From Bacteroidales bacterium (GTDB lineage: Bacteria > Bacteroidota > Bacteroidia > Bacteroidales > Paludibacteraceae): 64,000 nt of DNA. A model generated the notes under the pieces. The model was given only the letters and a program-made list of their open reading frames with translations. It had not been told where the DNA came from and did not search any database. The stretch lies in assembly GCA_012518275.1 (NCBI GenBank), contig JAAYSS010000124.1, positions 1 through 64,000 of the forward strand, written 5' to 3'. Below are positions 75-19,727 of this stretch, one piece after another; the first letter of the stretch is position 1, and each line of letters opens with the position of its first letter. The position numbers and the translations under genes were made by a program.

Positions 75-1577
75 ATGAAAAAAACAAGTATTATATTAAT
101 TTTGTGTATGCTTTTTGCCGTTTTAGCGTGTGGTACAACAAACACAGGAAATGATGACAATAACGGCATAATACCCCCCACCCCTCCCCCGGGTAAGACT
201 TTTCGAGCAGGTGCATCGGCAAGAAGCATCTTGCCACCGGCAAATATGAATGTTAAAGGGGGCAGGACGGTTGTCGAGAGTCCATCAGATTCAATATATG
301 CCAAGAGTTTGTTGCTTGATGATGGTAACACAAAGTTGTTGTTTGTTGTACTTGATTTAACTAGTTTGGATCATTATGTAACAAAAGTGGCAAAAGAGAG
401 CATAAATAGACGTACCGGTATACCTACAAAAAACATCATGATTTCTTGCACTCACACTCACTCTTCAATTTACGCAGTAAGATACGCCGGTTATCAAACG
501 GTACCCATAGATGAATGTGTTTGGGAAAATTGGGAGTTGAATGACTATCAGGCTTTTGTTGTAAATCAAATAACTAAAAGTGCGGCTGCTGCATTATCCA
601 ATTTAGAACCCGCACAAATAGGCTGGGGAAAAGCCGAGGTTCCTCAGTGGGTATTTAATCGACGGTATAGGATGAAAAATGCTACTCAAACAACCCCTTG
701 GGGTGAGAAAGAATATGTTCACTGCAACCCGCCTACTCTTCATCCTGATATCATTGAGCCTGTTGGTCCTGTTGATCCGGAAGTTACTTTTATATCAGTA
801 AAATCAATTAAAGGTCATCCTTTAGCACTATTTGCCAGTTACCCACCGCATTATCCGGCTGATATACCAGAACCCTATGTGTCTTCAGACTATTATGGAG
901 TGTTTGCAAAAGAAATACAAACGTTCTTGAAGGCTGAAAAACAGGAAATACCTTTTGTTGGCGCTATTACAATAGGCACATGTGGGGACTTGAATGCGAT
1001 AAATCGTATGGCAAGCAGACCTTCAGGGAATCTGCGTGAACAGATGGGTTTTGATGTAGCTAGAGGAGTGTATAATGCATACACTAAATTAGAACATAAG
1101 TCGTGGGTGCAGTTAGATGTAGCACAATCTGTAATAAAGTTGGCAGCACGTAAAGTGACTGATCCTGCTCAGCTTGAATATGCTCAGTTTTTATTAGATC
1201 GAAGAAGTCAAGGACTTCCCTACTTGAATCATCGTCTGGAAATTGGTTATGCCCAACAGGTTTTCCGTATGCGTAAATGTTGGCCTGATGTGCTTGATAT
1301 AACATTGCAAGCATTTCGTATTGGTGATCTTGCGGCAGTGGCTATCCCTTTCGAGGTTTTTGTTGAAACAGGATTATCAATCAAACAAAAAAGTCCATTT
1401 GAAGGAACATATATAAATAGCCTGTCCAATGGAGCATTTGGATATCTTCCAACTGAACAACAACATGAGCTTGGAGGCTACGAAACTTGGATAGCCTTAA
1501 GTAATAGGGTAGAAAAATCCGCAGCAACAAAAATTGAAGCAGAAGTGTTGAACCTTCTTGGAGAACTCAACAAATAG
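75..1577 (+). CDS. Exported neutral-ceramidase-like lipoprotein (copy 1)
   Basis: Neutral/alkaline non-lysosomal ceramidase N-terminal family (zinc amidases). The first 19 residues form a lipoprotein signal ending in L-A-C (Cys19), followed by a Gly/Pro-rich linker, so it should sit on the outer membrane. The zinc-binding T-H-T-H-S motif is at residues 126-130. The family hexapeptide G-D-V-S-P-N, whose Ser is the nucleophile, reads G-D-L-N-A-I at 304-309, so the Ser is replaced by Asn307. True ceramidase activity is therefore doubtful. A perfect AGGAGG stands 8 bases before the ATG, unusual in Bacteroidetes. A close paralogue lies at 5240-6688. The next reading frame downstream is a degraded GH20-like relic. 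Family assignment is firm; the substrate is unknown. Confidence 0.85.
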   Translation: MKKTSIILILCMLFAVLACGTTNTGNDDNNGIIPPTPPPGKTFRAGASARSILPPANMNVKGGRTVVESPSDSIYAKSLLLDDGNTKLLFVVLDLTSLDHYVTKVAKESINRRTGIPTKNIMISCTHTHSSIYAVRYAGYQTVPIDECVWENWELNDYQAFVVNQITKSAAAALSNLEPAQIGWGKAEVPQWVFNRRYRMKNATQTTPWGEKEYVHCNPPTLHPDIIEPVGPVDPEVTFISVKSIKGHPLALFASYPPHYPADIPEPYVSSDYYGVFAKEIQTFLKAEKQEIPFVGAITIGTCGDLNAINRMASRPSGNLREQMGFDVARGVYNAYTKLEHKSWVQLDVAQSVIKLAARKVTDPAQLEYAQFLLDRRSQGLPYLNHRLEIGYAQQVFRMRKCWPDVLDITLQAFRIGDLAAVAIPFEVFVETGLSIKQKSPFEGTYINSLSNGAFGYLPTEQQHELGGYETWIALSNRVEKSAATKIEAEVLNLLGELNK

Positions 1578-1580
1578 GAT

Positions 1581-1929
1581 ATCAAGCGTATCACGTCTGC
1601 TCATATACAAAGGATGGCTAAAACTGTTTTACAAAGCAATCGGCATTAATGTGATAGAATTTAATGAACTTACCACTCAAGCCTGGAAGCAAGTCAAGAC
1701 TTATGCAGTTCAGCACATGGTAAGATCAAGTGCTTACACAGGCAACAATGATGGGATAGTCTTTTATAGTTGTGGGAATAATGAAGAATGTATTGCTAGT
1801 ACAGTAGAATATTTCACGGAGTTCATTATACCTGAAAGGCTTTTGGTTTTTATGCAAATTCTTTGGATACCATACCCACTATTGAGAAATATGAAAAAAT
1901 ATTTCACGAGCAATAATATTAGTTGGTAA
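1581..1929 (+). pseudogene. C-terminal relic of a GH20-like Tat-protein paralogue
   Basis: The reading starting near 1611 gives R-M-A-K-T-V-L-Q-S-N, matching M-P-K-S-V-L-Q-S-N-W in the intact paralogues at 3861-4988 and 6767-7819. It hits a stop at 1645. After a frame change the match resumes (V-K-T-Y near 1695-1707) and, at about 1800-1880, T-V-E-Y-F...R-L-L-V-F-M-Q-I-L-W-I-P matches T-V-E-F-C...H-L-L-G-F-M-Q-T-F-W-M-P of the 6767 protein. So this is the last third of a third paralogue with at least one frameshift and one stop. The gene predictor's 123-residue ORF here is only the longest open remnant. It sits straight after a ceramidase-like gene, the same order as 5240/6767. Confidence 0.8.
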
Positions 1930-2072
1930 TGCCCGTAATTTTTTTCTAGGAAAGATGAATAAACAAGTTGTATGAGATACATAATGAGCTAAGTGCTATT
2001 GAAGTGCGTAATGGCTTGTTAGATTAAGAGTAAACGATGAAAAGTGGTTTTTGTTTTTAAATTATACGATTT

Positions 2073-3680
2073 ATGAAAAAGAATGATTTAACGCTTTCTC
2101 GGCGAGCTTTTTTATCAAGTGTTGCCGTGGTAGGGGCTGGTAGTGCTCTAAAAGCAGCACGGATTCAGGGATCCGGTAGTTTGTTAAAAGTTGCTAATGA
2201 ATTTGAAGACGCATCAAATTATGTTGAGGAGTCGGACTCTCGTTTATTGAAGCGACTTATACCACAACCTGCATATGTCCGCTTAAATGATGATAAAGCA
2301 GTTTTACTCAACAACATGTTGACAGTAAACGTTGAACTTGGTACTTCTGACACTCAGGCGAGACGAAAAGTATCGGATATTTTCCGTCAATACTTCGGGA
2401 GTACTCCCACTATTAACGTTGCTAAAACAAAAGACTTAGCATCCGAAGAGGCATACAGGATTCGTGCTACAGATTCTACTTTGACATTATCGGCTACATC
2501 TTTTGCTGGAATCAGACATGCCCTTTCTACTCTACGCCAATTAGCTGAAGCTAACAATGATACAGAAAAACTTGTTTGTTACCGTATTCCCGAGATGGAG
2601 ATTGAGGACAGCCCCACCATATCATTTCGCGGAATGCACTTGTGTTGGTTTCCAGAAACAGAGGTGATTCAGATTGAACAATATATAAGGTGGGCAGCCT
2701 ATTATAAGTTTAATTATATTATTATTGAATTTTGGGGCACATATCCATTTGTCTCCAAGTCATTTTTAAGTTGGCGTGAATATAAAACCACTCTAAAAGA
2801 TATTAAGCGATTGGTGAAAATTGGTAAAGAACTAGGGGTAACATTGATACCTCAAATAAATATTTTTGGCCACGCTTCAGGTAGTAGAAGAGCTTCTGGT
2901 AAACATGCCATACTGGATTTATATCCTGAATACCAACCTTTATTTGAACCTGACGGTTGGACATGGTGTTTAAGTAATCCACTGACTCGCAAGATACTAT
3001 CAAGTGCTATACTTGAAACATTTGAAGCTTTTGAAAATCCCCCATTTTATCATATTGGTGGTGATGAGGCATGGGGTTCAGCAGAATGTTACGCTTGTCG
3101 GCATGCAGATTATGAAGCGTTGCTAATTGACCATTTAAAATACTTCCATCAATTATTATTGAGAAAGAACAGTCGAATGATGATGTGGCACGATATGCTC
3201 ATTTCAAAGAGCAACCCAAAATGGAAAGAATATGTAGCAAACGGCGGTGCAAAAGCAGAAAATATTCTCAGGGAATTGCCCAAAGACATTGTGATTTGCG
3301 ATTGGCAATACGGCACACAATACAGTACGCACAAAAAAAATGAAACATGGCCTACTATGTCATATTTTAAAGAACTTGGTTTCGATGTTTTAGCATGTCC
3401 CTGGAATAATATTGAGAATATTAAATCTTTGGGTGAGAAAGTTAGAGCAGCAAAACTGTATGGGTTATTATGCACAACATGGTTTGGACCTTCAATAGGA
3501 CAGATGTTAAACATCATGACGCATGGTGCTCAAGCAGCATGGTCGAAATCTCCATATGGACCATCCGATAGAATAATGGGTATGCGACATCTTAGACAAA
3601 TTGGATGGGATATTCCAATTAAAAACTACCCAAATACAGGGGTACATAAATGGCAGGTACGTCCTGATACTTACCCATAA
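2073..3680 (+). CDS. GH20 beta-N-acetylhexosaminidase, Tat-exported
   Basis: Glycoside hydrolase family 20, 535 residues. The N-terminus carries a twin-arginine signal (S-R-R-A-F-L at residues 9-14, then a hydrophobic stretch). Residues about 60-180 look like the GH20b accessory domain. The catalytic TIM barrel starts near 185 (S-F-R-G-M-H) and has the family signature H-I-G-G-D-E at 327-332, with Asp331-Glu332 the substrate-assisted catalytic pair. The enzyme should release terminal GlcNAc or GalNAc outside the cytoplasm, which fits the NagA and NagB-like genes 13 kb downstream. It is flanked by two relics of GH20-like paralogues (1581-1929 and 3690-3739). The family call is secure; the linkage cut is unknown. 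Confidence 0.9.
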   Translation: MKKNDLTLSRRAFLSSVAVVGAGSALKAARIQGSGSLLKVANEFEDASNYVEESDSRLLKRLIPQPAYVRLNDDKAVLLNNMLTVNVELGTSDTQARRKVSDIFRQYFGSTPTINVAKTKDLASEEAYRIRATDSTLTLSATSFAGIRHALSTLRQLAEANNDTEKLVCYRIPEMEIEDSPTISFRGMHLCWFPETEVIQIEQYIRWAAYYKFNYIIIEFWGTYPFVSKSFLSWREYKTTLKDIKRLVKIGKELGVTLIPQINIFGHASGSRRASGKHAILDLYPEYQPLFEPDGWTWCLSNPLTRKILSSAILETFEAFENPPFYHIGGDEAWGSAECYACRHADYEALLIDHLKYFHQLLLRKNSRMMMWHDMLISKSNPKWKEYVANGGAKAENILRELPKDIVICDWQYGTQYSTHKKNETWPTMSYFKELGFDVLACPWNNIENIKSLGEKVRAAKLYGLLCTTWFGPSIGQMLNIMTHGAQAAWSKSPYGPSDRIMGMRHLRQIGWDIPIKNYPNTGVHKWQVRPDTYP

Positions 3681-3860: not shown

Positions 3861-4988
3861 ATGAAAAGGAGAAAATTTATTAAATTATCGGCTACTGCAG
3901 GCATAGCAGCCAGTATGCCTTCTGTTGTTTTTTCTCAGAAAAAACGAAGGAAAATAGTATCTTCAGGCAGCTCGAAGCTAATTTGGGCTAACTTATTGCA
4001 TTTAAGCACTAATATGTGGGAAGATCACCCTTACATAAAGAAAAACAGAATGTGGCCAGATATCATAGACGAAGAAATTCATAAGGTTGATTATGAGTGC
4101 AAAACATGTAAGGATGCTATTGCATGGGGATTGCGTGCTTATAGACCCTTTTTAGTGTTTGAAGAATCGGTATGGAATACGGTACTTAATAAAATGTCGG
4201 ATGCAGGTATGAATATGGTTGTCATTGATTTGGGAGATGGTGTGAAATATGAAAGCCACCCGGAAATTGCTGTAAGAAATGCATGGAGCGTAGATAAATT
4301 AAGGTCAGAGCTTTCTAAAATTCGCAATCTAGGTATGGAACCAATTCCAAAGTTGAACTTTGCAACATCCCACGATACTTGGCTGGGCGAGTACTCTAAA
4401 ATTGTATCTACAAGTAAGTATTATTCTGTTTGTCGAGATTTAATCCAGGAGGTTATCGAAATATTTGACAATCCTCGTTTTTTTCATTTAGGGATGGATG
4501 AGGAGACTTACGGACATCAGCGAAATTACAACCATATCGTTATACGCCAAAACGACTTGTGGTGGTACGACTTCTATTTTCTTGTCAATGAGGTTGAGAA
4601 AAAAGGTGTCCGCTCTTGGATTTGGTCTGATTACGGATGGCGACATCCTGAATTGTTTTTTAAAAAAATGCCTAAATCCGTATTGCAAAGTAACTGGTAT
4701 TACCAGAATGTATTTGATTTGGCTCAATTAGAAAAACCGGTTAAAACTTATGTTCAGTTCTATAATGACCTGGAAAATTATGGATACGATCAAGTACCCA
4801 CCGGAAGCAATTGGAGTTATGATACTAACATGGAAAACACGGTAGACTATTGTAAAAAAAACATTGACCCTTCTCGTTTGTATGGATTTATGACAGCACC
4901 TTGGGCACCAACATTATCAACCTGTCTTGATACACATATAGAAGCAGTTAATCAAGTTAATAGAGCAATTAAAAAAACTAAGCGTTGA
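3861..4988 (+). CDS. Tat-exported TIM-barrel protein with GH20-like D-E motif (paralogue A)
   Basis: Starts with a twin-arginine-like signal (K-R-R-K-F-I-K-L at residues 2-9, hydrophobic to about 25). The body looks like a TIM-barrel glycosidase. Residues 209-214 read H-L-G-M-D-E, close to the GH20 H-x-G-G-D-E catalytic motif with Met for the second Gly. Trp-rich blocks (W-W-Y-D, W-I-W-S-D-Y-G-W) follow, as expected for sugar binding. It has a full-length paralogue at 6767-7819 and two relics nearby. It has no GH20b accessory domain of the kind seen in the gene before it. Role inferred: hydrolysis of the same glycan as the GH20. It could also be a binding or transferase derivative. Confidence 0.7.
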   Translation: MKRRKFIKLSATAGIAASMPSVVFSQKKRRKIVSSGSSKLIWANLLHLSTNMWEDHPYIKKNRMWPDIIDEEIHKVDYECKTCKDAIAWGLRAYRPFLVFEESVWNTVLNKMSDAGMNMVVIDLGDGVKYESHPEIAVRNAWSVDKLRSELSKIRNLGMEPIPKLNFATSHDTWLGEYSKIVSTSKYYSVCRDLIQEVIEIFDNPRFFHLGMDEETYGHQRNYNHIVIRQNDLWWYDFYFLVNEVEKKGVRSWIWSDYGWRHPELFFKKMPKSVLQSNWYYQNVFDLAQLEKPVKTYVQFYNDLENYGYDQVPTGSNWSYDTNMENTVDYCKKNIDPSRLYGFMTAPWAPTLSTCLDTHIEAVNQVNRAIKKTKR

Positions 4989-5239: not shown

Positions 5240-6688
5240 ATGAAACATTCAAAATTTATTATTCGGTTTATTTTTAGCGTAATATCTTTTTTGACGATTA
5301 TAAACGTGCCTTTATCATATGGCGCAGAAAACAGAGTTTTTCGTGCGGGGGCTGCAGTATCTAATATAACTCCACTTCTTGGAAGCGGAATTATTGGAGA
5401 ATGGACAACACCACCGGCATCTCATGTGCATGATGATTTATTAGCAAGATGTTTAGTACTAGATGACGGCTCTACAGAATTAGTTTTTGTAGTATTAGAC
5501 CTTTTAGGTATTCATACTAATTTGTCCGATATGGCAAAGAAAATCATTGAGCAAAGACTCAATATCCCACCTGAAAACATCATAATTTCAACAACCCATA
5601 CTCACTCAGCAGCAAGTGCTATGGGAAGTGTTTGGATGGAATGGAATCAATATCCTTTAGATGAATATCAAAATTATGTTATCAGTCGAATAGCTGATGT
5701 AGTTCAAATAGCCAAAAACAACTTAGAACCTGCTCGTATTGGCTGGGGGGTTGCAAAAGCTCCTGAACATGTGTTTGTAAGGCGTTGGTTTGTTAAGGAA
5801 CCTGTTAAAAATCCATTTGGTGGATATGATAAAGTACTTACGAACCCAAGATATAGCAACAAAAATAAAACTCAACCGACCACTAAGCCTGATCCGGACG
5901 TGTCATTTATTTCAGTTCAATCTAAAGACGGTCGTCCAATTGCTTTGTTTGCTAACTATGCACTCCATTATATTGCAGGAACAGGCAAGGGACATATTTC
6001 GGCAGATTATTACGGAATGTTTGCAGATTATGTCTCAGAGCTAATTAATGATAAACGTAATCCAAAATTTGTAGCCAGTATGTCTAATGGAGCATCGGGG
6101 AATATAAATAATAATGACTTTTCCCGTCCAAGAGAGAAAAAGAAGAATTATGAAAGAATAAATTATGTAGCTAAAGATATTGCTGGAAAAGTATATGATG
6201 CATACAAGCATGTGGTTTACCATGACTGGGTACCATTGGGCTCACAATCAGAAAAAATCACACTGAAGGTCCGTAAGCCAAATCAAGAAATGGTGAATCG
6301 AGCAAAAAAACTTCTTCAAAATGCTGATAATGATAAAAATCAGCATGTTAGGGAGAGGAATTATGCAAAAATAACACTATCTCAACTTAAACGGCCCAAC
6401 CAAATAAACATTCCATTAACTACATTTAAAATTGGCGATTTAGGTATCGCCAGTATCCCTTTCGAAGTATTTGTTGAAATAGGATTGGATATTAAAGCAA
6501 GATCACCCTTTAAACAAACTCATATAATTAGCTTAGCTGATGGATACCATGGTTATTTGCCTACTCCGGAACAACATGAGTTAGGAGGATATGAAACTTG
6601 GTTAGGCACAAATAATGTTGAAAAAGAGGCCTCTGTAAAAATAGCAAATCAGATTTTAAAACAGTTCTCAGATTTGCAATCAAATTAA
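5240..6688 (+). CDS. Exported neutral-ceramidase-like protein (copy 2)
   Basis: Same family as the proteins at 75 and 18408. The N-terminal 28 residues are a Sec-type signal (hydrophobic 8-26, ending near Y-G-A), without a lipobox Cys, so it is probably periplasmic. Zinc motif T-H-T-H-S is at 119-123. The nucleophile hexapeptide G-D-V-S-P-N reads G-N-I-N-N-N at 287-292, with Asn290 in place of Ser, like copy 1. The C-terminus keeps the block H-E-L-G-G-Y-E-T-W shared with copy 1. It is followed after 78 bp by the GH20-like paralogue B. The repeated ceramidase-like plus GH20-like order suggests a duplicated two-gene cassette. Substrate unknown. Confidence 0.85.
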   Translation: MKHSKFIIRFIFSVISFLTIINVPLSYGAENRVFRAGAAVSNITPLLGSGIIGEWTTPPASHVHDDLLARCLVLDDGSTELVFVVLDLLGIHTNLSDMAKKIIEQRLNIPPENIIISTTHTHSAASAMGSVWMEWNQYPLDEYQNYVISRIADVVQIAKNNLEPARIGWGVAKAPEHVFVRRWFVKEPVKNPFGGYDKVLTNPRYSNKNKTQPTTKPDPDVSFISVQSKDGRPIALFANYALHYIAGTGKGHISADYYGMFADYVSELINDKRNPKFVASMSNGASGNINNNDFSRPREKKKNYERINYVAKDIAGKVYDAYKHVVYHDWVPLGSQSEKITLKVRKPNQEMVNRAKKLLQNADNDKNQHVRERNYAKITLSQLKRPNQINIPLTTFKIGDLGIASIPFEVFVEIGLDIKARSPFKQTHIISLADGYHGYLPTPEQHELGGYETWLGTNNVEKEASVKIANQILKQFSDLQSN

Positions 6689-6766: not shown

Positions 6767-7819
6767 ATGACTAATAGACGGAATTTTATTAAGCAATTAT
6801 CAGCTGCTGCGGTGAACGTAACACCCAATACGCTATTGTCGCAAACGTTTTCCTCAAAAACAACAAATACCCCTGTTACATCTCCGGGTAAAAAAATATG
6901 GGCTTGCCTAATGCATCTCTCTTTCAACTTCGCCGGAGGAATAAAAAGCTGGGGAGGTTTACGAACAGAGTTTGAACCAGATCAGTCGGTTTGGGATATA
7001 GCAATAAAACGGATGGCCGACAGGGGAATTAACATGGTTTTGATTAATCTTGATGATTCTGTTATGTGGAGAAGTCACCCGGAGATTTCTTTAAAAAACT
7101 CTTGGACACCCGAAAAGCTTCGAGAAGAATTAACCAAAATAAGAAAACTTGGAATAGAGCCGATTCCTCTATTAAACTTCTCAACATGCCATGATGCTTG
7201 GCTTGGCAAGTATTCAAAAATGGTATCAACGAAAACATATTATAATGTTTGCAGAAATTTAATTGCTGAAGCTATTGAAATTTTCGACACACCAAGGTTT
7301 ATTCATTTTGGTATGGATGAAGAAAATTACAATCTTCAAAAACATTTTGACTACATTGTTATTAGACAAAACGAACTTTGGTGGGGTGATCTTTATTTTT
7401 ATATTTCAGAAGCCATGTCCCGAAACGTGCGTCCATGGGTTTGGTCGGATTACGTTTGGCATCACCCCGATCAGTTTTTTAAAATGATGCCAAAATCAGT
7501 TTTACAAAGCAATTGGTATTATGGGGGGATCTTGGACCCAAAACATGAGCGTGTTAAAGCTTATGTTGACCTTGAGAGGGAGGGCTATGATCAGATTCCT
7601 ACGGGTGGATTTTTTGCTAGACCCAGAAATAATTTTATAGCTTCCGATGAAAGGAATATCGGTAACACAGTTGAGTTTTGTTCAAAACACACATCCGACA
7701 CTCATCTACTAGGGTTTATGCAGACATTTTGGATGCCTACTATAGAACGATTTAGATCACCTATTATAAAAGCTATAGACCTAATTGGTGATGCTAAATA
7801 TAAATTCGAAAATAAGTAA
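6767..7819 (+). CDS. Tat-exported TIM-barrel protein with GH20-like D-E motif (paralogue B)
   Basis: Paralogue of the protein at 3861-4988. Twin-arginine-like signal N-R-R-N-F-I-K-Q at residues 3-10. The shared core includes M-V-L-I-N-L-D-D near 90-97 and H-F-G-M-D-E at 180-185, the GH20-like acid pair with Met for Gly. Near the C-terminus L-G-F-M-Q-T-F-W-M-P is the block that identifies the relic at 1581-1929. It lacks about 30 residues present near the N-terminus of paralogue A. It is followed closely (31 bp) by the cytosolic protein at 7851. Likely an exported glycosidase or a close relative; not assigned to a numbered family by eye. Confidence 0.7.
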   Translation: MTNRRNFIKQLSAAAVNVTPNTLLSQTFSSKTTNTPVTSPGKKIWACLMHLSFNFAGGIKSWGGLRTEFEPDQSVWDIAIKRMADRGINMVLINLDDSVMWRSHPEISLKNSWTPEKLREELTKIRKLGIEPIPLLNFSTCHDAWLGKYSKMVSTKTYYNVCRNLIAEAIEIFDTPRFIHFGMDEENYNLQKHFDYIVIRQNELWWGDLYFYISEAMSRNVRPWVWSDYVWHHPDQFFKMMPKSVLQSNWYYGGILDPKHERVKAYVDLEREGYDQIPTGGFFARPRNNFIASDERNIGNTVEFCSKHTSDTHLLGFMQTFWMPTIERFRSPIIKAIDLIGDAKYKFENK

Positions 7820-7850: not shown

Positions 7851-8897
7851 ATGAAAGTAAAAGAAACAGGTGTAAGTTATTACGGATTAAGCTACCCCGA
7901 ACATGCGGAAAGAGATTTTAAAGAAATGATTGCACATAACTGCAATGCAGTTCTTTTGGCATTATCGGAATTTGACATTGACTTTTGGTTCCCTAACATT
8001 GTCAAGGTGGCTAAAGTAGCTAAAGATTTGGGAATGAAAGTATATTTAAATACTTGGGGAATCGGCAAATGGTTTGGAGGAGAACCACCCAGTAATTTTT
8101 TGACAAACAATGTAAAAAACAGACAGGTTTCAGCATTCACCGATGAACCACTTCCTGCCGCGTGTTTTAACACAAAAGCATTTCGCGACTATTTTCACGG
8201 TTTGTTAGAGAAATTGGCAATTCATGTGGATGCAGATGGTTTCTTCTGGGATGAGCCACACTATGCACTACCTAAAAGTTATGCGTCTATAACAGGTGGT
8301 CCTGCCGATGACTGGGCGTGTCGTTGCTCGGTGTGTAAAAGGGATTTTGAAGAGCTTTACGGGTATGAAATGCCTAAGATAATTACCAAAGAGGTAGTTG
8401 AGTTTAGACAAGACAAAGCACTTGACATATTAGTAGAAGGAGCAAAAATAATTAAAAACATTCGTCCTAACAGCAAAATAATTTGTTGTGTGCATGCAAC
8501 CATAAACACTTATTATGTGGTGGAAAACCGTGGATACGATAATTGGGATAAAGTTGGTAAAACAGATGTGTTTGATGTGTTCAGTACAACAATATTAAAC
8601 TGGAGTTTACCGCGAGATTACTTTAAAACGATAACGCAGCGCACTGTAGATATTGCAAAAAAGTATAAAAAAGGCTCTCAGCGATGGATTATGGGATATT
8701 ATAATGAACCAAAAAGACTTGAAGAGATAAAAGAGGTAGCTCATCTCTATAAGGATATGGGAGTAGAAAGTCTCTTTTCTTGGACCTATCGAGGTGGACA
8801 TGGAACGGTTTTGGCTGCGCCGCGCGCACTAGAGGTATGGGACATGCTAGGAGAAGCATATGGCGAGGTGTTGGATGAAAAATATAAGATAAAATAA
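7851..8897 (+). CDS. Putative cytosolic TIM-barrel glycosidase-like protein
   Basis: 348 residues with no signal peptide, so cytoplasmic. I do not recognise a named family. Features: G-F-F-W-D-E-P-H at 130-137 with a candidate catalytic Asp134-Glu135, followed by C-x-C-x2-C (157, 159, 162) in a C-R-C-S-V-C-K-R-D-F block. Cys-pair blocks like this occur in several glycosidase-like TIM barrels before the sixth strand. W-x-Y-R-G-G-H near the C-terminus could close the barrel. It begins the tight run 7851-11484 (gaps 14 and 27 bp, then an overlap), so it probably acts with the SIS and Gfo/Idh/MocA-type proteins on an imported sugar. Confidence 0.6.
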   Translation: MKVKETGVSYYGLSYPEHAERDFKEMIAHNCNAVLLALSEFDIDFWFPNIVKVAKVAKDLGMKVYLNTWGIGKWFGGEPPSNFLTNNVKNRQVSAFTDEPLPAACFNTKAFRDYFHGLLEKLAIHVDADGFFWDEPHYALPKSYASITGGPADDWACRCSVCKRDFEELYGYEMPKIITKEVVEFRQDKALDILVEGAKIIKNIRPNSKIICCVHATINTYYVVENRGYDNWDKVGKTDVFDVFSTTILNWSLPRDYFKTITQRTVDIAKKYKKGSQRWIMGYYNEPKRLEEIKEVAHLYKDMGVESLFSWTYRGGHGTVLAAPRALEVWDMLGEAYGEVLDEKYKIK

Positions 8898-10411: not shown

Positions 10412-11484
10412 AACCTGTAAAAATTGCCATATCTTCACTTACGCATGGTCACACTCGTAAGTATTTTCAAACATTACACGAAAACCCAAAGTTGGAGTGG
10501 GTTGCCGTATCAGCAGAGTCGGACAAAGTACGAGATGTCTTTTTGAAAAGCGGTTACAATGTTCCTTGCTATATGGATGAGAAAGAAATGCTTGATGCTC
10601 ACCCCGATATAGAAGCGGTGGTAATGGCGTCTGCCAATAATCGACACATTCATCAATTTAGGGAATATACTCAACGGGGTATTCATATTCTTTGCATGAA
10701 GATTCCTACTTTTGATATGGAAGAGTATGATGAGATAATTCGATTAGTGGAAGAGTCGGGAATAGTATGTCAAATTGAACTGGAGATGCATTATAATCCA
10801 GTAGTAGAGCGAGTTAAAAAACTTTTAGCACGCGAGGTGCTGGGCACCATCTCCGGTTTTAATGCCACTAATATCACTCTGTCTCCAGTTTGGGCTTTTC
10901 CTTGGCAGGGAGTCCCAGAAGAAAGCTACGGAAAACGTATTCCTTTATGTGAAGGAAACAAACGTTTTCGGGGGGGAGCACTCTCGGATCATCCTCATGT
11001 TTTTGATATGATTCGATGGCTCACAAACAGTGAGTTTGACTATATTTATGCTGAGGTAGGTCCTAATTTACGAACAGATATAGAGGTGGAAGACATACTT
11101 TTGGTTAATGGGAAAATGAAAAATGGAGTAAGTTTTTTATTTGATCCTTCTTGGTCAAGACTCGAAGAACGTTTAGAAGTTCCTGGTCCCGGATGGGAAA
11201 TTTATCCTAAAAGGATGGAAGTAAATTTCAGCGTTAGTGGAGAAAAGGGTGTGATGCTGGCTGATTGCTTTGGTCCTAATGTTTATCACAACGGTGCACC
11301 AAACGATAGATATACAGTTCAATATACTTATTTTGATGAATGGATAGGTATGATGGATGAGTTTATTTATTGTATTAGAAATAAGGATAATCCAAAGATA
11401 AACTTGAAATGGCATAAAAAAACCATTGAGGCTATGAATGCTTGTTATGAAAGTATTTATTCAGGACAACCAATATATTTGTAA
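10408..11484 (+). CDS. Gfo/Idh/MocA family oxidoreductase
   Basis: 358 residues. The N-terminal Rossmann fold (V-K-I-A-I-S-S-L-T-H-G-H) has a variant of the usual G-x-G-x2-G loop, a form seen in some members of this family. C-M-K-I-P near residue 92 stands where the catalytic E-K-P usually is; the Lys is kept. The C-terminal domain includes G-G-A-L-S-D-H-P-H-V-F-D, the family D-x-x-x-H block. Likely an NAD(P)-dependent sugar or cyclitol dehydrogenase in the cytoplasm. It is the last gene of the run starting at 7851. Confidence 0.8.
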   Translation: MKPVKIAISSLTHGHTRKYFQTLHENPKLEWVAVSAESDKVRDVFLKSGYNVPCYMDEKEMLDAHPDIEAVVMASANNRHIHQFREYTQRGIHILCMKIPTFDMEEYDEIIRLVEESGIVCQIELEMHYNPVVERVKKLLAREVLGTISGFNATNITLSPVWAFPWQGVPEESYGKRIPLCEGNKRFRGGALSDHPHVFDMIRWLTNSEFDYIYAEVGPNLRTDIEVEDILLVNGKMKNGVSFLFDPSWSRLEERLEVPGPGWEIYPKRMEVNFSVSGEKGVMLADCFGPNVYHNGAPNDRYTVQYTYFDEWIGMMDEFIYCIRNKDNPKINLKWHKKTIEAMNACYESIYSGQPIYL

Positions 11485-11837: not shown

Positions 11838-13667
11838 ATGATAATAAATAATATTGATTGGATAATAATTATTGGTTTTTTGTTGTTTTTAACAGCGGTT
11901 GGATTGATTTCGAGCAGAGGTGGTGCAGACGATTCAACTAGCTACTTTCTTTCTAAACGGAACATGCCGTGGTGGCTTTTAGGGGTTTCAATGGTTGCTA
12001 CCACGTTCTCTCTTGGTACTCCGAATCTTGTTACTGACATGGTTCGTTCGGGAGGTGTGGCTCAAAATTGGCAGTGGTGGTGCTTTTTGCTGTCAGGTAT
12101 GTTAACAGTATTTGTCTATTCTAAGCTATGGAGTAGATCAAAAATTATGACTGATCTTGAATTTTATGAAGTACGATACAGTGGTAAAGAGGCAGCTTTT
12201 CTACGTGGATTCAGATCAATCTATTTAGGGTTTTTCTTTAACATTTTTATATTGGCAAGTGCAGCACTGGCTTTACTCAAATTTGCTGCTATAATGTTGG
12301 GAATAAGTCCTGTCCTTGCATTAATAATAATTTCAGCAATAATTCTTGTATATAGTACGATAGGCGGATTAAAATCTATTTTATGGACAGATTTTTTCTT
12401 GTTTATTGTTGCTATGATTGGAACGATTATTCCTGTTTTTTACATCATAAATTCGCCTCAAATAGGTGGACTTAACAGTTTTCTCACAAATGACATTATT
12501 GTTGATAAACTCAGCTTTTTTCCGGATTTTACGAATGCACAAACAGCATTAACAATATTTCTCATTCCTATAACCATACAATGGTGGGCTGCTTGGTATC
12601 CCGGTTCTGAGCCAGGTGGAGGGGGATATATAACACAAAGAATTTTATCTGCAAAATCAGAAAAGGATGCTGTTAAAGGCACACTTTTTTTCAATGTTAT
12701 GCATTATGCTGTGAGACCATGGCCCTGGATTATTGTTGGTTTGGCTTCTTTGATAGTATTTCCAAATTTAGATTCAATGATTGATGTTTTTAAAGATGTA
12801 GATCCAAAGTATATACAAAATGATATAGCCTTTTCTGCCATGCTAAGACATTTTCTTCCTAACGGAATATTAGGTATAGTTTTAGCTTCTTTAATTGCGG
12901 CATATATGTCAACGGTTTCTACTCAAATAAATTGGGGTGCTTCATATTTAGTGAATGATTTTTATTCTCGGTTTATCAATCCAAATGCATCGGAAAAAAA
13001 GAAAGTACTTGTTGGAAGGATATGGACGATATTGTTAATCGTGCTATCAATTGTTTTGGCACTTTATTTAGAAAGTGCATTACAAGTATTCCAGTATATG
13101 TTATTGATTGGTGCAGGAACAGGGCTCATATATCTTTTGAGATGGTTTTGGTGGAGAATTAATGCTTGGTCTGAAATATCAGCAATGATTGGTGCAATGG
13201 TGTTTTCATTGATTGTTATTGTTGTTGAAAAAACAAGTTTAATGCATATCGATGATCAAACAGTAATGCTGTATGGATTTGAGATGCAAAAAGGGTTTTG
13301 GGATACGATGAAATTTGTTTTTGTGGTTTTTTGTAACAGTTTGCTTTGGATTACTGTTACATTTTGCACTAAGTCAACAGAAGAAAAAGTGTTGCTGGAT
13401 TTTTATAAGAATATTAGACCTGGTGGTCCAGGTTGGAAGAAAATTACGAGGAAACACAGCGAACTTGAAAAAAATCGCATGACAAAAGATTGGAATGTGC
13501 CTGTTGGATTGTTGTGTATGAGTATTAGTTGTGTTGGAATTTTAAGCATGCTATTTTCAATAGGCTATCTCATATATGGTAATTATCTGGGATTTCTAAT
13601 ACTGCTGATATTAACCATCATTTCAACTATTGTATTGTTTAAGTTGTGGGGAAAGATATTCGATTAA
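11838..13667 (+). CDS. Sodium:solute symporter (SSS family)
   Basis: 609 residues with about 14-15 hydrophobic helices. The start has the SSS pattern (F-L-L-F-L-T-A-V-G, then S-x-F-L-S-K-R-N-M-P-W-W). Family hallmarks follow: A-T-T-F-S-L-G-T-P, a G-G-L-K-S-I-L-W-T-D block, and A-Y-M-S-T-V-S-T-Q-I-N-W-G-A-S-Y near 355-370, where sodium-binding Ser/Thr residues lie. It probably imports a sugar or sugar derivative by Na+ symport, supplying the enzymes encoded upstream. Its 3-prime end runs directly into a truncated MFS pseudogene, a recombination joint. Confidence 0.9.
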   Translation: MIINNIDWIIIIGFLLFLTAVGLISSRGGADDSTSYFLSKRNMPWWLLGVSMVATTFSLGTPNLVTDMVRSGGVAQNWQWWCFLLSGMLTVFVYSKLWSRSKIMTDLEFYEVRYSGKEAAFLRGFRSIYLGFFFNIFILASAALALLKFAAIMLGISPVLALIIISAIILVYSTIGGLKSILWTDFFLFIVAMIGTIIPVFYIINSPQIGGLNSFLTNDIIVDKLSFFPDFTNAQTALTIFLIPITIQWWAAWYPGSEPGGGGYITQRILSAKSEKDAVKGTLFFNVMHYAVRPWPWIIVGLASLIVFPNLDSMIDVFKDVDPKYIQNDIAFSAMLRHFLPNGILGIVLASLIAAYMSTVSTQINWGASYLVNDFYSRFINPNASEKKKVLVGRIWTILLIVLSIVLALYLESALQVFQYMLLIGAGTGLIYLLRWFWWRINAWSEISAMIGAMVFSLIVIVVEKTSLMHIDDQTVMLYGFEMQKGFWDTMKFVFVVFCNSLLWITVTFCTKSTEEKVLLDFYKNIRPGGPGWKKITRKHSELEKNRMTKDWNVPVGLLCMSISCVGILSMLFSIGYLIYGNYLGFLILLILTIISTIVLFKLWGKIFD

Positions 13668-14645: not shown

Positions 14646-15899
14646 GTGCGAGAACCTCACTATCAAAAAGAAATTAATAGAGCCTTATTTATAATCGCTT
14701 TTCTCTTTTTCATCTTTGGTTTTCTTACCTGGGTGAATGGAACGCTGATAGCTTTTTTTAAAAAAACGTTTGATTTAAGTCATTTTAGTTCGTATTTGGT
14801 AACATTCGCGTATTACTTATCATACACTATTATGGCAATTCCTTCATCCATGTTGTTGAAAAAAGTGGGATTTAAAAACGGAATGTCAATCGGTTTATTT
14901 GTAATGGCTTTAGGATGTGTCATTTTTATTCCTGCTGCCAAAATTGCTTCATATCCGACCTTCCTAATAGGTCTATTTACCACGGGAATAGGATTGACTT
15001 TGCTTCAAACAGCAGTTAATCCTTATGTAACCCTTATGGGTCCCCACGAGAGTGGAGCCAAACGGATTAGTTTTATGGGGTTTTCCAATAAAATTGGTGG
15101 AATCATAGGACAAGTTATTTTAGGTAGCTTATTATTGCATGGAGCATCAACCGTAGTCCAACAAGACGAATTAGATAAAATCATTATCCCCTATCTTATT
15201 TTAGGTGCATTGTTTTTAGTTTTGTCTTATGTTATCAAGAAAAATGAATGGTTCCCAGAACTTGATGAAGACGATGTGGATGATTCTGATAGAGGCATTG
15301 AAAACTCTGATAACAGAAAAAGTGTTTTTCAATATCCAAATTTAGTGTTGGGTGTATTAGCTCTTTTTTGTGCCGGAGCCGCTGAAGTGATGGCAATAGA
15401 CAGCATTATTAGTTATGGAATGTCCATGGGATTTCCTGAAGCACGAGCAAAACTATTTGGTTCTTATACATTAGTTGCTATGATGCTGGGGTATATATCC
15501 GGAATGATTTTGATACCGAAATATATTAAACAAGAGCGCTATCTGCAATATGGAGCCATTATCGGAACATTGCTGACTATTTTGGCTATTTACAGCGGAG
15601 CGTTTACATCGGTAATATTTATAGCTTTGCTCGGATTTGTTAATGCTTTGTTTTGGCCCGCCATTTGGCCCCTAGCTCTTGACGGGATTGGCAGATTTAC
15701 CAAAATAGGTTCTGCTCTATTGGTGATGAGTGTTTGTGCCGGTGCAATTGTACCGATGCTTTATGGTTACATTGCCGATAAAATCGGAAGTGTACAGAAA
15801 GCCTACTGGATATTGATTCCTTGCTATTTGTATATTGTTTACTATGCATCACATGGATATAAATTAAGAAAATGGAGAAAAGAAAAGCATTATGGGTAA
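14646..15899 (+). CDS. FucP/GluP-type sugar:H+ MFS transporter
   Basis: 417 residues, 12 predicted helices in two halves separated by a hydrophilic acidic loop near 205-230. Family signature L-Q-T-A-V-N-P-Y-V-T near residues 121-130, as in FucP and Bacteroidetes GlcNAc (NagP-like) permeases. The start codon is GTG at 14646; no ATG lies close upstream in frame. The stop overlaps the nagA start by 8 bases, so the two are coupled, which supports an amino-sugar substrate such as GlcNAc. Two relics of this family lie in the locus (4999-5068 and 13646-14236). Confidence 0.88.
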   Translation: MREPHYQKEINRALFIIAFLFFIFGFLTWVNGTLIAFFKKTFDLSHFSSYLVTFAYYLSYTIMAIPSSMLLKKVGFKNGMSIGLFVMALGCVIFIPAAKIASYPTFLIGLFTTGIGLTLLQTAVNPYVTLMGPHESGAKRISFMGFSNKIGGIIGQVILGSLLLHGASTVVQQDELDKIIIPYLILGALFLVLSYVIKKNEWFPELDEDDVDDSDRGIENSDNRKSVFQYPNLVLGVLALFCAGAAEVMAIDSIISYGMSMGFPEARAKLFGSYTLVAMMLGYISGMILIPKYIKQERYLQYGAIIGTLLTILAIYSGAFTSVIFIALLGFVNALFWPAIWPLALDGIGRFTKIGSALLVMSVCAGAIVPMLYGYIADKIGSVQKAYWILIPCYLYIVYYASHGYKLRKWRKEKHYG

Positions 15900-17055
15900 A
15901 CAAATAATAAAATCAAGCATAGTAACTGAGTTCAAGATTTTGCAAGGTTATCTATATGTTGAAAATGGTAAATTTAGTGAAATCAGTACTAATAAGCCTC
16001 ATGATGAAATCATTGATTTAGGTGACTCTTTTATTGTTCCTGGATTTATTGATTTGCATATTCATGGTGTTCATCGGGCATTGGTTGATAATGGAGAAGA
16101 AGATTTAAAAGAAATTTGCCGAATACTGCCACAATACGGGGTAACAGGTTTTCTCCCGACATTGGCTCCAAGACAGAAGGGAGAAGATGCTGAGTTTCTT
16201 TCTAGATTATCAAAAACGAAAACCGAAGGAACGGAAATTCTGGGCTTCCACCTGGAAGGGCCGTTTCTTAAACTTACCGGTGCATTAGGTGCTGGAGCAA
16301 TAACAGGCTCAGATGATGAAAGAGTAAAATCTTTAATACAAGCAGCTAAACCCTATTCGGCTATTTTCAGTATTTCACCGGATGTTGAAGGAATTGAAAA
16401 ATTAATCCCAATAATGGCAGCAAACGATACGCCTGTTTTTATGACGCATACAGCTGCAAATGTAGAACAAACGCAACGTGCTATTGAACTTGGTGTTCGT
16501 CACGCTACCCATTTTTATGACGTGTTTCCTTGTCCCTCGGTAACAGATCCGGGCGTAAGACCTTGTGGAGTTGTAGAAGCAATATTGGCTGATGAGCGGG
16601 TAAGCGTCGATTTTATTTTGGACGGTGTGCATGTAGATCCGATTGCTGTAAAAATGTCTTTGATAAGTAAAAACAAAGGGCCCGGCAAAGTTTGTTTGAT
16701 TACCGATGCCAATGTGGGAGCGGGATTAGAACCCGGACAGTTTTCATTCGGTAACCTTGGTGATATCAGCTTTGCTTACAAAGGTGCTCCAGCACGTTCA
16801 GTAAAAGATAACACTTTGGCAGGGAGTGGATTGACTATGGAGCAGGCGTTAAAAAATGCTGTGAAGTGGTTAGATATAGATTTAGTGGAAGCTTCAAAAT
16901 TAGTGAGTTTTCATCCGGCTCAAGTGCTTGGTCTAGAACATAAAAAAGGACTCATAAAAGAAGGACATGATGCGGATTTTGTGGTTTTAAATAAAAACTT
17001 AGATGTTTTACAAACATGGATAGGCGGAAAATGTTTTTATAGCAAGAAAGAATGA
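15892..17055 (+). CDS. nagA: N-acetylglucosamine-6-phosphate deacetylase
   Basis: Amidohydrolase-superfamily enzyme of 387 residues that removes acetate from GlcNAc-6-phosphate in the cytoplasm. Visible motifs are H-x-H at 56-58, L-E-G-P at 121-124 (metal-binding Glu122), A-T-H-F-Y-D and T-D-A-N near the end, with the catalytic Asp in T-D-A. The usual T-H-L-F/Y-N-A-M block reads T-H-F-Y-D-V-F here: the metal His is kept but the substrate-side Asn-Ala-Met is changed. The true substrate may therefore be a variant of GlcNAc-6-P. It is coupled to the transporter upstream and followed by the NagB-like gene. Confidence 0.82.
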   Translation: MGKQIIKSSIVTEFKILQGYLYVENGKFSEISTNKPHDEIIDLGDSFIVPGFIDLHIHGVHRALVDNGEEDLKEICRILPQYGVTGFLPTLAPRQKGEDAEFLSRLSKTKTEGTEILGFHLEGPFLKLTGALGAGAITGSDDERVKSLIQAAKPYSAIFSISPDVEGIEKLIPIMAANDTPVFMTHTAANVEQTQRAIELGVRHATHFYDVFPCPSVTDPGVRPCGVVEAILADERVSVDFILDGVHVDPIAVKMSLISKNKGPGKVCLITDANVGAGLEPGQFSFGNLGDISFAYKGAPARSVKDNTLAGSGLTMEQALKNAVKWLDIDLVEASKLVSFHPAQVLGLEHKKGLIKEGHDADFVVLNKNLDVLQTWIGGKCFYSKKE

Positions 17056-17117: not shown

Positions 17118-18098
17118 ATGGTGCAAACTAAAAAAAACATGCCCAATGAAACTCAAGCAGACGGGCATCAGCAGTTCGAATTTAGTCCCTCTGAATGGGT
17201 CCCATTTAAGGATAAAAAAGAAATTAACAGAGTATTAACTATTAAAAGAGAGGACATTGAGAAACATTCAAATCCTGATTTTAAGATTAAAGTAGTACCT
17301 GATGCGGATGTTGAATATTATTGGATTACGGATATGTATAGCAGGATAAAGAAAGCATCTGAATCTGGTGAAAAACTTGTAATGATATTGCCCAATCCTG
17401 CACCACTTTATAAGCATTTGGCACGGCTCCTCAATGCAACAAATATTGATTGTAGGAATTTGTACGCTTTCGCGATGGATGAGTATGCCGATGAGAATGG
17501 TAATATCGCACCTGCAAACTGGGAGTTTGGGTTTACCTATGCCATGATGAAGTATTTCTATTATGAATTAGATGAGAAAATTCGTCCTCCAAAAGAGCAG
17601 TTTGTTGGATTTACCAATCAAAATGTGAAGGATTATAGTAAAATGATTGCAGATCACGGTGGGGCTGATATCTGTTATAGCGGTCCGGGATGGACAGGAC
17701 ATTTAGCATTTATAGAGCCGGATGCACCTGAATTTCAGGGAACGCTTGAGGAGTGGAAGCAAATGGATGCTCGGGTATGTACATTGAGCCCATTTACCCT
17801 TGCTCAAAATTCGTTACATGGAATTTTCGGAAAGAGCGGAAATCTGGCCGCAGTTCCACCAAAAGCTGCAACTGTAGGACCTGTGGATGTTATCAATGCA
17901 AAAAACAGATTTGACACGCATGCCATTACGGTACACGGGACAACCACAGCATGGCAGAGACTTATTTCGCGTTTAGTTCTGCATGGTCCGGTTACTCCTT
18001 TAGTACCAGAATCAATACTACAAACGTTGCCTACACAAGTATATGTTTCTGAAACAATTGCTCAAAATATAGAAACTGATTGGCATAAAGGGTATTAA
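17118..18098 (+). CDS. NagB-like (glucosamine-6-phosphate deaminase family) protein with altered active site
   Basis: 326 residues, about 60 longer than E. coli NagB, with a polar N-terminal extension. M-D-E-Y at 120-123 keeps the Asp that acts as the general base. The motif G-x-G-x-D-G-H-x-A-F-N-E-P reads G-P-G-W-T-G-H-L-A-F-I-E-P at 189-201: the ring-opening Asp (Asp141 of E. coli) is Thr193, while His195 and Glu200 are kept. It may still be a deaminase/isomerase, but probably on another substrate or by a changed mechanism. It follows nagA and is followed by a strong hairpin, so it closes that operon. Confidence 0.78.
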   Translation: MVQTKKNMPNETQADGHQQFEFSPSEWVPFKDKKEINRVLTIKREDIEKHSNPDFKIKVVPDADVEYYWITDMYSRIKKASESGEKLVMILPNPAPLYKHLARLLNATNIDCRNLYAFAMDEYADENGNIAPANWEFGFTYAMMKYFYYELDEKIRPPKEQFVGFTNQNVKDYSKMIADHGGADICYSGPGWTGHLAFIEPDAPEFQGTLEEWKQMDARVCTLSPFTLAQNSLHGIFGKSGNLAAVPPKAATVGPVDVINAKNRFDTHAITVHGTTTAWQRLISRLVLHGPVTPLVPESILQTLPTQVYVSETIAQNIETDWHKGY

Positions 18099-18211
18099 CA
18101 TAGGGATATATCATATGTTGTGTTGTAGGGAGATTGCGTCATGCTGTTTTTTTATTAATATTAAGAAACCTTTAATCATTTGCCGTTTTTTTCTGGAGTG
18201 ATGCAATCACG

Positions 18212-18245
18212 AGGTGTTCGTGTTTTTTCACGAGCACCTTTTGTT
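18212..18245 (+). terminator. Rho-independent terminator after the NagB-like gene
   Basis: An 11-bp stem (18212-18222 with 18229-18239, one G-U pair), TTTTTT loop and a short T-rich tail (TTTTG). It separates the nagA/NagB-like operon from the operon starting at 18408. Confidence 0.7.
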
Positions 18246-18316
18246 TAATGTTCGTGTTTGTTCATTTGGCGAGTGGTATTTTCGTTAATCGTCAGTTCTT
18301 GTGCGTGTTTATTCAC
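18217..18316 (+). repeat. Three imperfect short direct repeats in the 18.1-18.4 kb gap
   Basis: Copies of a unit like TTCGTGTTTnTTCA start near 18217, 18251 and 18302 (the last as TGCGTGTTTATTCA). They lie just upstream of the 18408 operon and could be operator sites, or chance similarity in T-rich DNA. The rest of the 309-bp gap shows only the terminator. Confidence 0.3.
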
Positions 18317-18407
18317 TTATTAAACGTGTAGATTTGTTAATTTTGAACTGTAAAATAGATGCAAGATAAGTGACATTAAATCAGTAAGTTATATATTATA
18401 GTTTAAT

Positions 18408-19727
18408 ATGGGAAAAAAAATTTTAAAAGCAGGTGCTGCAGTTACTATCATAACACCACAAGAGTCTCATTTCTTATTTGGTTATCCGTTTGTGGAAAGA
18501 ATGAGTACCGGTGTGCACGACGACCTGTTGAGTTCAGCGCTGTACTTAACGGATGGAGAAAATCATGTCCTATTTATTTCCAACGATGTGATTTATATAA
18601 CAAAGGAATCCACGGCGAGAATTAGAAAAGGAATTAACGAAAAAATAGGAATTCCTTCCACGAATATCCTTATAGCAGCTACTCACACACATTCAGCACC
18701 AGTAACTGCTGAAGTTGCAATAAGTGCAAATGACCCGGTTGTTCCCAAGGTGGATAAAGATTTTCTAAAATTCATCGAAGATAAAACTGTAGAAGTTGCT
18801 TGTGAAGCATTCAAAAAAGCAGAACCTGCAGAAATAGCATTTGTGCTTGGTGATGCGACGGGTGTGGGGACAAATCGACATAACCCCACGTGGCCCAAAG
18901 ATATGGAGCTTCCCACGATGATCTTGAAAAATCAAAAGAATGAATACATCGGCTGTATGATGGTGTGTAGTATGCATCCAACCATTTTGCATGAAGATTC
19001 TACATTATATTCCGGTGATTTTCCACATTTTGTAAGAGAATCGCTTCAAAAAGAAATTTTGGGTGAGCAATGCCCTGTCGTATATTTTACTGGAACTGCT
19101 GGAAATCAAAGTCCGAGACACGTAACCAAAGCCAATACATTTGAAGAAGCGGAGCGGATAGGAAAAATTGTGGCAAATTCCATCATTTCTAAACTGACAG
19201 ATACTGTGTCTTTCATATCAGATGTCAATATCTTTGCCATTCAAACGTTGGTTGATTTACCAAAACGGACATTCCCCACAGTAGAATGGGCAGAAGAACA
19301 TCGGGATAAATCAAAAAAACGTTTCGAAGAACTTAAAAAGCACTCAGACATTCCGCAGGAAATCCGTACAGCCGAAGTAAATTGGTTTGGTTCCGAAGAA
19401 CTTTTATTTTTATCCAAATTAGCCCAATCAAATGAGTTGGAGCATTTTTATAAGAGCTCTCTGCCTGCCGAAATTCAAATAATTAAAGTAGGAGAGTGGA
19501 AATTTGTGGCATGGCCCGGCGAAGTTTTTGTGGAATATGGACTTGAATTGAAAAACCATTTTGATAATGTGGCTTTAATAACTTATGCCAACGGTGAACT
19601 ACAAGGGTATATCGTAACCAAAGAAGCGCAAGAAAAAGGATTTTACGAAGCAGGAAATTCTTTCTTCGATTATAAAGCCGGTGAACTAATGCTCGCAGAA
19701 ACTATCAAAGAATTAAAATCGATGTAG
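18408..19727 (+). CDS. Cytosolic neutral-ceramidase-like amidase (copy 3)
   Basis: Same family as the proteins at 75 and 5240, but with no signal peptide and 439 residues, so cytoplasmic. Zinc motif T-H-T-H-S at 92-96 and a second metal His in M-H-P-T near 189-192. Unlike the exported copies it keeps the nucleophile: G-N-Q-S-P-R at 232-237 in place of G-D-V-S-P-N, with Ser235. It is the first gene of the 18408-29151 operon and ends 2 bp before the FGGY kinase. A cytosolic amidase coupled to a sugar kinase argues for de-N-acylation of a small sugar-like substrate rather than ceramide; this is inference. Confidence 0.85.
   Translation: MGKKILKAGAAVTIITPQESHFLFGYPFVERMSTGVHDDLLSSALYLTDGENHVLFISNDVIYITKESTARIRKGINEKIGIPSTNILIAATHTHSAPVTAEVAISANDPVVPKVDKDFLKFIEDKTVEVACEAFKKAEPAEIAFVLGDATGVGTNRHNPTWPKDMELPTMILKNQKNEYIGCMMVCSMHPTILHEDSTLYSGDFPHFVRESLQKEILGEQCPVVYFTGTAGNQSPRHVTKANTFEEAERIGKIVANSIISKLTDTVSFISDVNIFAIQTLVDLPKRTFPTVEWAEEHRDKSKKRFEELKKHSDIPQEIRTAEVNWFGSEELLFLSKLAQSNELEHFYKSSLPAEIQIIKVGEWKFVAWPGEVFVEYGLELKNHFDNVALITYANGELQGYIVTKEAQEKGFYEAGNSFFDYKAGELMLAETIKELKSM

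Follow-up and report, generated by a model that had tools for sequence, protein, structure and literature searches.

The question raised by this locus is what three ceramidase-like proteins do in a gene cluster of amino-sugar type, and how two of them, which are exported and carry Asn where the neutral ceramidases have a Ser in their hexapeptide motif, should be understood. The locus lies in a stretch of 64,000 nucleotides (hereafter the window) from contig JAAYSS010000124.1 of the Bacteroidales bacterium assembly GCA_012518275.1 (Paludibacteraceae), and the three genes are referred to as cer1, cer2 and cer3. Judging from alignments and structure models, the exported pair (cer1 and cer2) are probably, on balance, active zinc-dependent amidohydrolases of an Asn-signature subfamily, which would act on N-acylated sugars or amino-sugar glycans. 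On this reading, none of the three proteins would be a ceramidase in the strict sense, and the cluster looks suited to the degradation of glycans that contain amino sugars, not of ceramide. The genes are listed below with their key residues, taken from sequence alignment, and with the codon at the aligned hexapeptide Ser position, placed by arithmetic; export was called by eye and with a hydrophobicity rule, not with a signal-peptide program.

75-1577, + strand: cer1, 500 amino acids, exported with a lipoprotein-type signal; Asn-signature ceramidase-like protein (H127, H129, R196, H259, N307, E427, Y457, Y469)
993-995, + strand: codon of cer1 Asn307
5240-6688, + strand: cer2, 482 amino acids, exported with a hydrophobic N-terminal signal; Asn-signature ceramidase-like protein (H120, H122, R181, H243, N290, E409, Y439, Y451)
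6107-6109, + strand: codon of cer2 Asn290
18408-19727, + strand: cer3, 439 amino acids, cytosolic, no signal; ceramidase-like protein with Ser (H93, H95, R157, H190, S235, E372, Y401, Y413)
19110-19112, + strand: codon of cer3 Ser235

All three proteins match PF04734 above its curated cut-off of 32.1 bits (cer1 51.5, cer2 53.0 and cer3 51.4), the matches ending at positions 217-257 of the 509 in the profile. The hexapeptide reads GDLNAI in cer1, GNINNN in cer2 and GNQSPR in cer3, where Ser-Pro is kept; the amidase motif of neutral ceramidase, GDVSPN, is thus not found in the exported copies, and the aligned motif of the Pseudomonas enzyme (2zws) is GNLSPN. THTHS is present in cer1, cer2 and cer3, and each of them keeps the seven columns that correspond to zinc ligands and to catalytic His, Arg and Tyr residues (metal binding is predicted). 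A sequence-only reading of this DNA had described both the change of Ser to Asn in the exported pair and the intact zinc motif of all three copies, and both were verified, N307 and N290 standing against S235 in cer3.

In a plain sequence search the relation to the solved ceramidases is hardly visible (expectation value (E) 0.12 for cer1, 0.036 for cer3, no match for cer2). The profile of a 105-sequence family, described below, gave E values of 9.5e-39 to 2zws and 1.1e-34 to the human chain 4wgk when run against PDB chains with hmmsearch, and profile-profile comparison by hhalign with the longer same-phylum members L009 and L010 (locus handles begin with L) gave 5.9e-28 and 4.7e-32. L009 in turn matches 2zws at E 1.7e-139, which permits the transfer of residue positions; a hand count along it places the hexapeptide Ser at residue 250 of the 2zws chain and at Ser354 in human ceramidase. 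In both the profile-profile and the hmmsearch alignments, the Ser of GDVS/GNLS lines up with the Asn column, with no gap in the motif. On this sequence evidence, the homology of the window proteins to ceramidases is judged not to be chance. A Ser in a shifted position was also considered and ruled out, as the motif is ungapped in both alignments and no other Ser lies at that place.

AlphaFold models were made of cer1 (residues 41-500; predicted local distance difference test (pLDDT) 92.9, predicted template modelling score (pTM) 0.93) and of cer3 (pLDDT 87.3, pTM 0.89). For both, two Pseudomonas and two human ceramidase chains occupied the top Foldseek ranks, with best E values of 3.7e-28 for cer1 and 2.5e-28 for cer3. 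VIA-align superposed the cer1 model on 2zws with Z 36.2 (root-mean-square deviation 3.7 over 394 residues) and the cer3 model with Z 41.4 (2.4 over 376 residues); the values against human 4wgk were 34.0 and 39.0. The first non-ceramidase rows stood at Z 5.4 (cer1) and 6.0 (cer3), and everything ranked lower than the ceramidases was regarded as reflecting common arrangements. As modelled, cer1 and cer3 share the catalytic-domain fold of neutral ceramidase, and the same fold is predicted for cer2 by its 39% identity to cer1 (cer3 is 26% identical to cer1). Since the model alignments stop at the end of the catalytic domain, at 2zws 3-488 for cer1 and 1-486 for cer3, the C-terminal domain is absent; only 31, 31 and 26 residues follow the last Tyr in cer1, cer2 and cer3, respectively.

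Compared with the Pseudomonas aeruginosa neutral ceramidase (2zws, 2zxc), the window proteins thus have a like catalytic-domain fold and aligned counterparts of His97, His99, Arg160, His204, Glu411, Tyr448 and Tyr460, which we take to be its catalytic and zinc-binding residues. They are unlike it in their low structural-alignment identity (17-18%), in having no C-terminal domain, in their amino-sugar-type setting, in the Asn that replaces Ser in the exported copies, and in a shorter segment between the hexapeptide and Glu: 120 and 119 residues in the exported copies versus 161 in 2zws and 186 in 4wgk, the latter two counted by hand. Human ASAH2 (4wgk) is similar in fold and in the counterparts of His196, Arg257, Tyr579 and Tyr591 (residues named in PMC6952831). 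It differs in having a C-terminal domain, in its Ser354, which is Asn in the exported copies, and in the longer segment after the Ser position, where the human enzyme carries a 30-residue subdomain from Leu358 to Lys387 (PMC6952831). The NCBIfam equivalog for neutral ceramidase, NF041649, gave no match to cer1 or cer2, and cer3 scored 30.2 bits against its cut-off of 1200. The earlier suggestion that none of the three need be a ceramidase is borne out by the failure of all three to reach this equivalog and by the amino-sugar type of the locus.

In the neutral ceramidase family, the nucleophile is a zinc-bound water. A review of the human structure assigns to Ser354 the support of Arg257 and not a nucleophilic role (PMC6952831, section 3.5). 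The sequence-only reading had taken the hexapeptide Ser for the nucleophile; this we reject on the structural account of the review and on the variability of the column (the basis being one review and general background), and the catalytic counterparts are kept in all three window proteins. Taken alone, the Asn is a poor argument for a different zinc-dependent chemistry or for binding only.

The named genomes were scanned with the two exported Asn copies as queries, which yielded 187 relatives; the best 80 were kept, giving 78 named loci whose titles include Bacteroidota, Planctomycetota, Verrucomicrobiota, Acidobacteriota and Hydrogenedentota among others. The Ser column of 167 aligned proteins holds N 120, T 21, S 8, A 4, G 4, R 3, M 2, gap 2, I 1, E 1 and K 1, in an alignment biased to Asn by the choice of queries, so that the Asn share is not a natural frequency. 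A core of 105 sequences, drawn from all 78 loci, was defined as all rows scoring at least 370 bits plus the two window copies. Asn stands at column 307 in 104 of these 105, and the HHRHEYY columns are complete in 103; the remaining two sequences are truncated where the fetched stretches stop. Although cer1 sits on a long branch and has the majority clade residue in only 214 of 438 columns, it keeps 51 of the 58 near-invariant columns, the catalytic ones included. Of the structure-related alignments, A5 comprises 105 of 117 rows (12 distant rows were omitted) and A6 comprises 42 chosen rows; loci L116-L145, from a later search, were not added to the alignments. In a quick tree, calculated with the motif columns removed, without a mixture model and on the 94 rows, out of 161, that thinning at 75% identity had left, cer1 and cer2 fall within a 56-row starred clade (N 55, I 1), and cer3 lies outside it on a long branch, its placement unsure.

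A second sample, not selected by the Asn copies, was taken from a PF04734 search of 296 genomes of the same phylum; the 29 matches outside the window, minus two second pieces, one identical copy and two without a locus, left 24 proteins. Here the Ser column holds N 5, A 4, G 3, S 3, R 3, M 2, T 1, E 1, K 1 and gap 1. His127 is kept in 23, His129 in 24, Arg196 in 21, His259 in 23, Tyr457 in 23 and Tyr469 in 18, and the Glu427 column is Glu in 17 and Asp in 6. Because ten states, counting the gap, occur at the Ser position in 24 proteins and the catalytic columns are steadier, though not fixed, the Ser position is the freest of these columns across the superfamily, with Asn fixed in one subfamily. 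The Ser had earlier been described as lost, which does not suit a clade in which Asn is the norm; surveyed across the phylum, the supposed Ser/Asn split has Ser in only three of the 24 independently sampled proteins. The near-invariant Asn offers a natural test of the role of the ceramidase Ser, and argues for second-shell support rather than for a nucleophile. A long ceramidase-like protein encoded on the reverse strand at L010:298-2628 reads GDVEPN, with Glu at the Ser position.

The Asn clade is an uncharacterised, widespread subfamily within a known fold family, not a new kind. Its members in the window resemble other short bacterial PF04734 proteins, likewise scoring over the curated cut-off with a match that is only partial along the profile. 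No study of the bacterial clade appeared among the literature titles listed, which did not extend to subscription papers, and a search for viral relatives found none. Genes of this kind are prone to receive the annotation 'neutral/alkaline ceramidase', given that the PF04734 cut-off is exceeded by the three window proteins and by seven of the ten relatives scanned; this would suggest sphingolipid metabolism where there may be none.

Links to sugar metabolism are also seen in other loci of the clade. Three members, at L051:2232-4553, L056:11480-13774 and L110:11466-13760, are fused to PF06439, the 3-keto-disaccharide hydrolase domain; their carriers are a Cyclobacteriaceae metagenome-assembled genome, Cyclobacterium lianum and Lunatibacter salilacus, respectively. 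Neighbouring genes were tallied in 24 chosen Bacteroidota loci and in 28 chosen loci from elsewhere, 21 of which gave proteins. The 91 neighbours in Bacteroidota include LUD (8), Gfo/Idh/MocA (8), AP_endonuc_2 (5), sulfatase (3), SusD (3) and PF06439 (2), and the sugar link is stronger in this phylum than in others. YdjC-type proteins are encoded next to an Asn-type gene in L047, and HGSNAT-type/DUF5009 membrane proteins occur in the same loci, up to ~9 kb away (L047:1392-4326, L056:3-1070 and L040:18231-19400). These neighbours are a hint that amino sugars may be deacylated and re-acetylated extracellularly.

In the window, cer1, cer2 and cer3 lie on the same strand as genes for GH20 and GH20-like, SIS, Gfo/Idh/MocA, SSS, NagP-like, NagA, NagB-like and FGGY proteins:

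2073-3680, + strand: GH20 hexosaminidase-like protein, N-terminus twin-arginine-like (above cut-off for both PF00728, 41.9 bits, and PF02838, 40.7 bits)
3861-4988, + strand: GHx1, GH20-like with a twin-arginine-like N-terminus, no Pfam match (family profile weak against GH20 chain 9fym, whole-sequence E 1.4e-6)
6767-7819, + strand: GHx2, paralogue of GHx1, 49% identical (sequence comparison, profile)
7851-8897: 348-amino-acid protein, no recognisable family in Pfam/NCBIfam-type searches
8912-9667, + strand: SIS-domain sugar isomerase-like protein (NF002805 230.4 bits, cut-off 135)
10408-11484, + strand: Gfo/Idh/MocA oxidoreductase (family profile)
11838-13667, + strand: SSS-family sodium:solute symporter (family profile)
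14646-15899, + strand: MFS sugar transporter (NagP is the best NCBIfam match at 364.1 bits, below that model's cut-off of 625; the gluP subfamily cut-off is exceeded)
15892-17055, + strand: NagA, N-acetylglucosamine-6-phosphate deacetylase (TIGR00221 228.9 bits, cut-off 225.65)
17118-18098, + strand: NagB-like protein (best match glucosamine-6-phosphate deaminase, 47 bits versus a cut-off of 236.9; no Pfam match; 86% identical to the L079 copy)
19730-21148, + strand: FGGY sugar kinase (no NCBIfam equivalog over cut-off)
21139-21750, + strand: SIS-domain protein resembling sugar-phosphate isomerases (KpsF/GutQ type, below the cut-offs for that type)

The proposed pathway would begin with an N-acylated sugar or an amino-sugar-containing glycan, imported through a SusC/SusD pair that is probably encoded upstream. 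In the exported proteins a zinc-bound water would attack the N-acyl carbonyl, and the Asn, like Ser354 in human ceramidase, would position the active-site Arg instead of acting as nucleophile. The released sugars would then reach NagA and the NagB-like protein by way of the NagP-like transporter, and the Ser-containing cytosolic copy, cer3, would be a related enzyme that deacylates an intermediate after its import. The cluster is like Nag-type chitin/glucosamine utilisation systems (NagP, NagA, NagB, NagX) in having NagP-like, NagA and NagB-like proteins, and unlike them in its ceramidase-like proteins, which the available part of the account in PMC9007349 does not mention. NagX (PF07786) has been proposed to re-acetylate periplasmic glucosamine (PMC9007349); by analogy, such a protein would complement an exported deacylase. 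PF07786 had no match in the window, its only match in the genome being a partial one of 25.8 bits on another contig. GHx1 and GHx2 carry an H-x-G-M-D-E motif and are both missed by Pfam; relatives of theirs lie beside Asn-type genes in L079, L095, L097 and L113.

The window begins 74 bases before cer1. The last 231 bases of another contig, C82 (L148:19769-19999), are 87% identical to window positions 2-232, and that contig end encodes SusC, SusD and a lipoprotein; a hybrid AraC-type regulator, 72% identical to one near a Petrimonas cer gene, is encoded further up. This sequence overlap suggests that cer1 heads a SusC/SusD locus; the divergence could stem from variant strains where the assembly broke off, or from the locus being present twice. 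As to the origin of the cluster, cer1 was matched in one of 150 genomes of the same family, namely its own, and a search of 20 relatives for the NagB-like gene gave only matches of 25-36% identity. For two genes located further downstream in the window, matches of 80-88% identity occur in two and five of seven genomes of the same genus, the others giving none or weak ones. A Bacteroidales contig, L079, has the same order of MFS, NagA, NagB-like and cer3 genes, with 58% identity in cer3 and 86% in the NagB-like protein. With cer1 and the NagB-like gene rare among relatives, the downstream genes shared and L079 similar, the cluster looks horizontally acquired. A contaminant contig was considered and rejected: in view of the 80-88% identical downstream genes, the contig seems to be native, with the cluster as an accessory island in it.

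The main rival to amidohydrolysis of acylated sugars keeps the same zinc site and gives it another sugar reaction, a lyase, hydratase or ester hydrolase step in oxidative (3-keto) glycoside breakdown. The three PF06439 fusions, the Gfo/Idh/MocA, AP_endonuc_2 and PF06439 neighbours in the chosen Bacteroidota loci and the Gfo/Idh/MocA gene within the window cluster would all suit it, as would the inclusion in PF06439 of a characterised 3-ketotrehalose hydrolase, BT2157 (PMC9007349). We nevertheless regard it as unlikely, because the clade retains, unaltered, the catalytic residues of a zinc amidase. In addition, the same paper describes another characterised PF06439 protein as an endo-xanthanase/lichenase, so that fusion is no proof of 3-keto chemistry (PMC9007349), and the PF06439 matches that the genome itself yielded are located on other contigs.

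It is a good deal less probable that the proteins are true ceramidases or glycosphingolipid N-deacylases in a glycolipid-breakdown locus, with Asn functionally replacing Ser. The closest solved structures are indeed the Pseudomonas and human neutral ceramidases (Z 34.0 to 41.4), and hexosaminidases would fit removal of a sugar head group; yet NF041649 is missed, the C-terminal domain is absent, the Ser/Asn-to-Glu stretch is shorter, and clade members are fused to a sugar enzyme. Catalytically dead sugar-binding proteins, as in the earlier idea that the exported copies only bind, appear slightly more improbable again: cer1 is fast-evolving and has changed two near-invariant positions of the clade, but in a binder drift would be expected, and the seven catalytic columns are conserved in the three window copies and in 103 of the 105 clade members, a pattern that a dead binder fits poorly. 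We give very little credence to a nucleophile shifted four residues upstream, to the Ser or Cys of column 303 (Ser 86, Cys 12 and Glu 7 among the 105 members), since the column holds Glu in seven members, Ala in 2zws and Leu in 4wgk, and such a nucleophile lies outside the known chemistry.

Several points weigh against the proposal favoured here, in which cer1 and cer2 hydrolyse N-acylated sugars as active zinc amidohydrolases. Substrates of GH20 enzymes must as a rule carry the N-acetyl group; an N-deacetylase beside GH20 would therefore have to come in at a later stage, or else attack a different acyl group or a different bond, and intracellular removal of N-acetyl is already the task of NagA. 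The NagB-like protein falls far short of the NagB cut-off, and cer1 is without two near-invariant neighbours of the clade, having Ala at N308 and Ile at N300. The 82 neighbours outside Bacteroidota are mixed, Amidohydro_2 and Peptidase_S9 being the commonest with four each. The SusC/SusD join rests on the 231-base, 87% overlap, and no contig was seen with both sides. The hexapeptide Ser was reportedly first proposed as catalytic by Galadari in 2006, from mutants of the human enzyme. A later paper describes the hexapeptide motif as essential for activity (PMC5773612); the change of Ser to Asn need not be harmless, and a support role for the Ser is compatible with an essential motif.

Taken more broadly, the Asn clade may form an undescribed family of exported carbohydrate-active zinc N-deacylases, spread through the five phyla named above and sometimes encoded in tandem, which would act on N-acylated (possibly 3-keto) amino sugars and in which a lipid amidase fold has been reused for glycans. 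This we advance tentatively, as a possibility that falls somewhat short of probable. If true, it would add a new type of carbohydrate-active enzyme, with the signature G-D/N-[VI]-N-N and with test cases in Cyclobacterium, Dyadobacter and Petrimonas.

The association of Asn with export and of Ser with the cytosol, put forward in the sequence-only reading, is true in the window and not general. By the hydrophobicity rule, 107 of the 120 Asn-type proteins are exported, as are 17 of the 21 Thr-type and four of the eight Ser-type ones; three of the 13 Asn rows not scored as exported begin at the edge of a fetched stretch. Nine Ser/Thr-type proteins, encoded in tandem in two Cyclobacterium loci and one Dyadobacter locus (L055, L058 and L071), have Pro at the aligned zinc-ligand His column, with the motifs GDQ[ST]P[RH] and GD[LI]TPH, the reverse of the pattern in the window and the Asn clade; eight of the nine score as exported. 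At least three ceramidase-like genes are present in 17 of the 78 named loci (L036-L113), and 14 of these 17 mix Asn types with Thr and/or Ser types.

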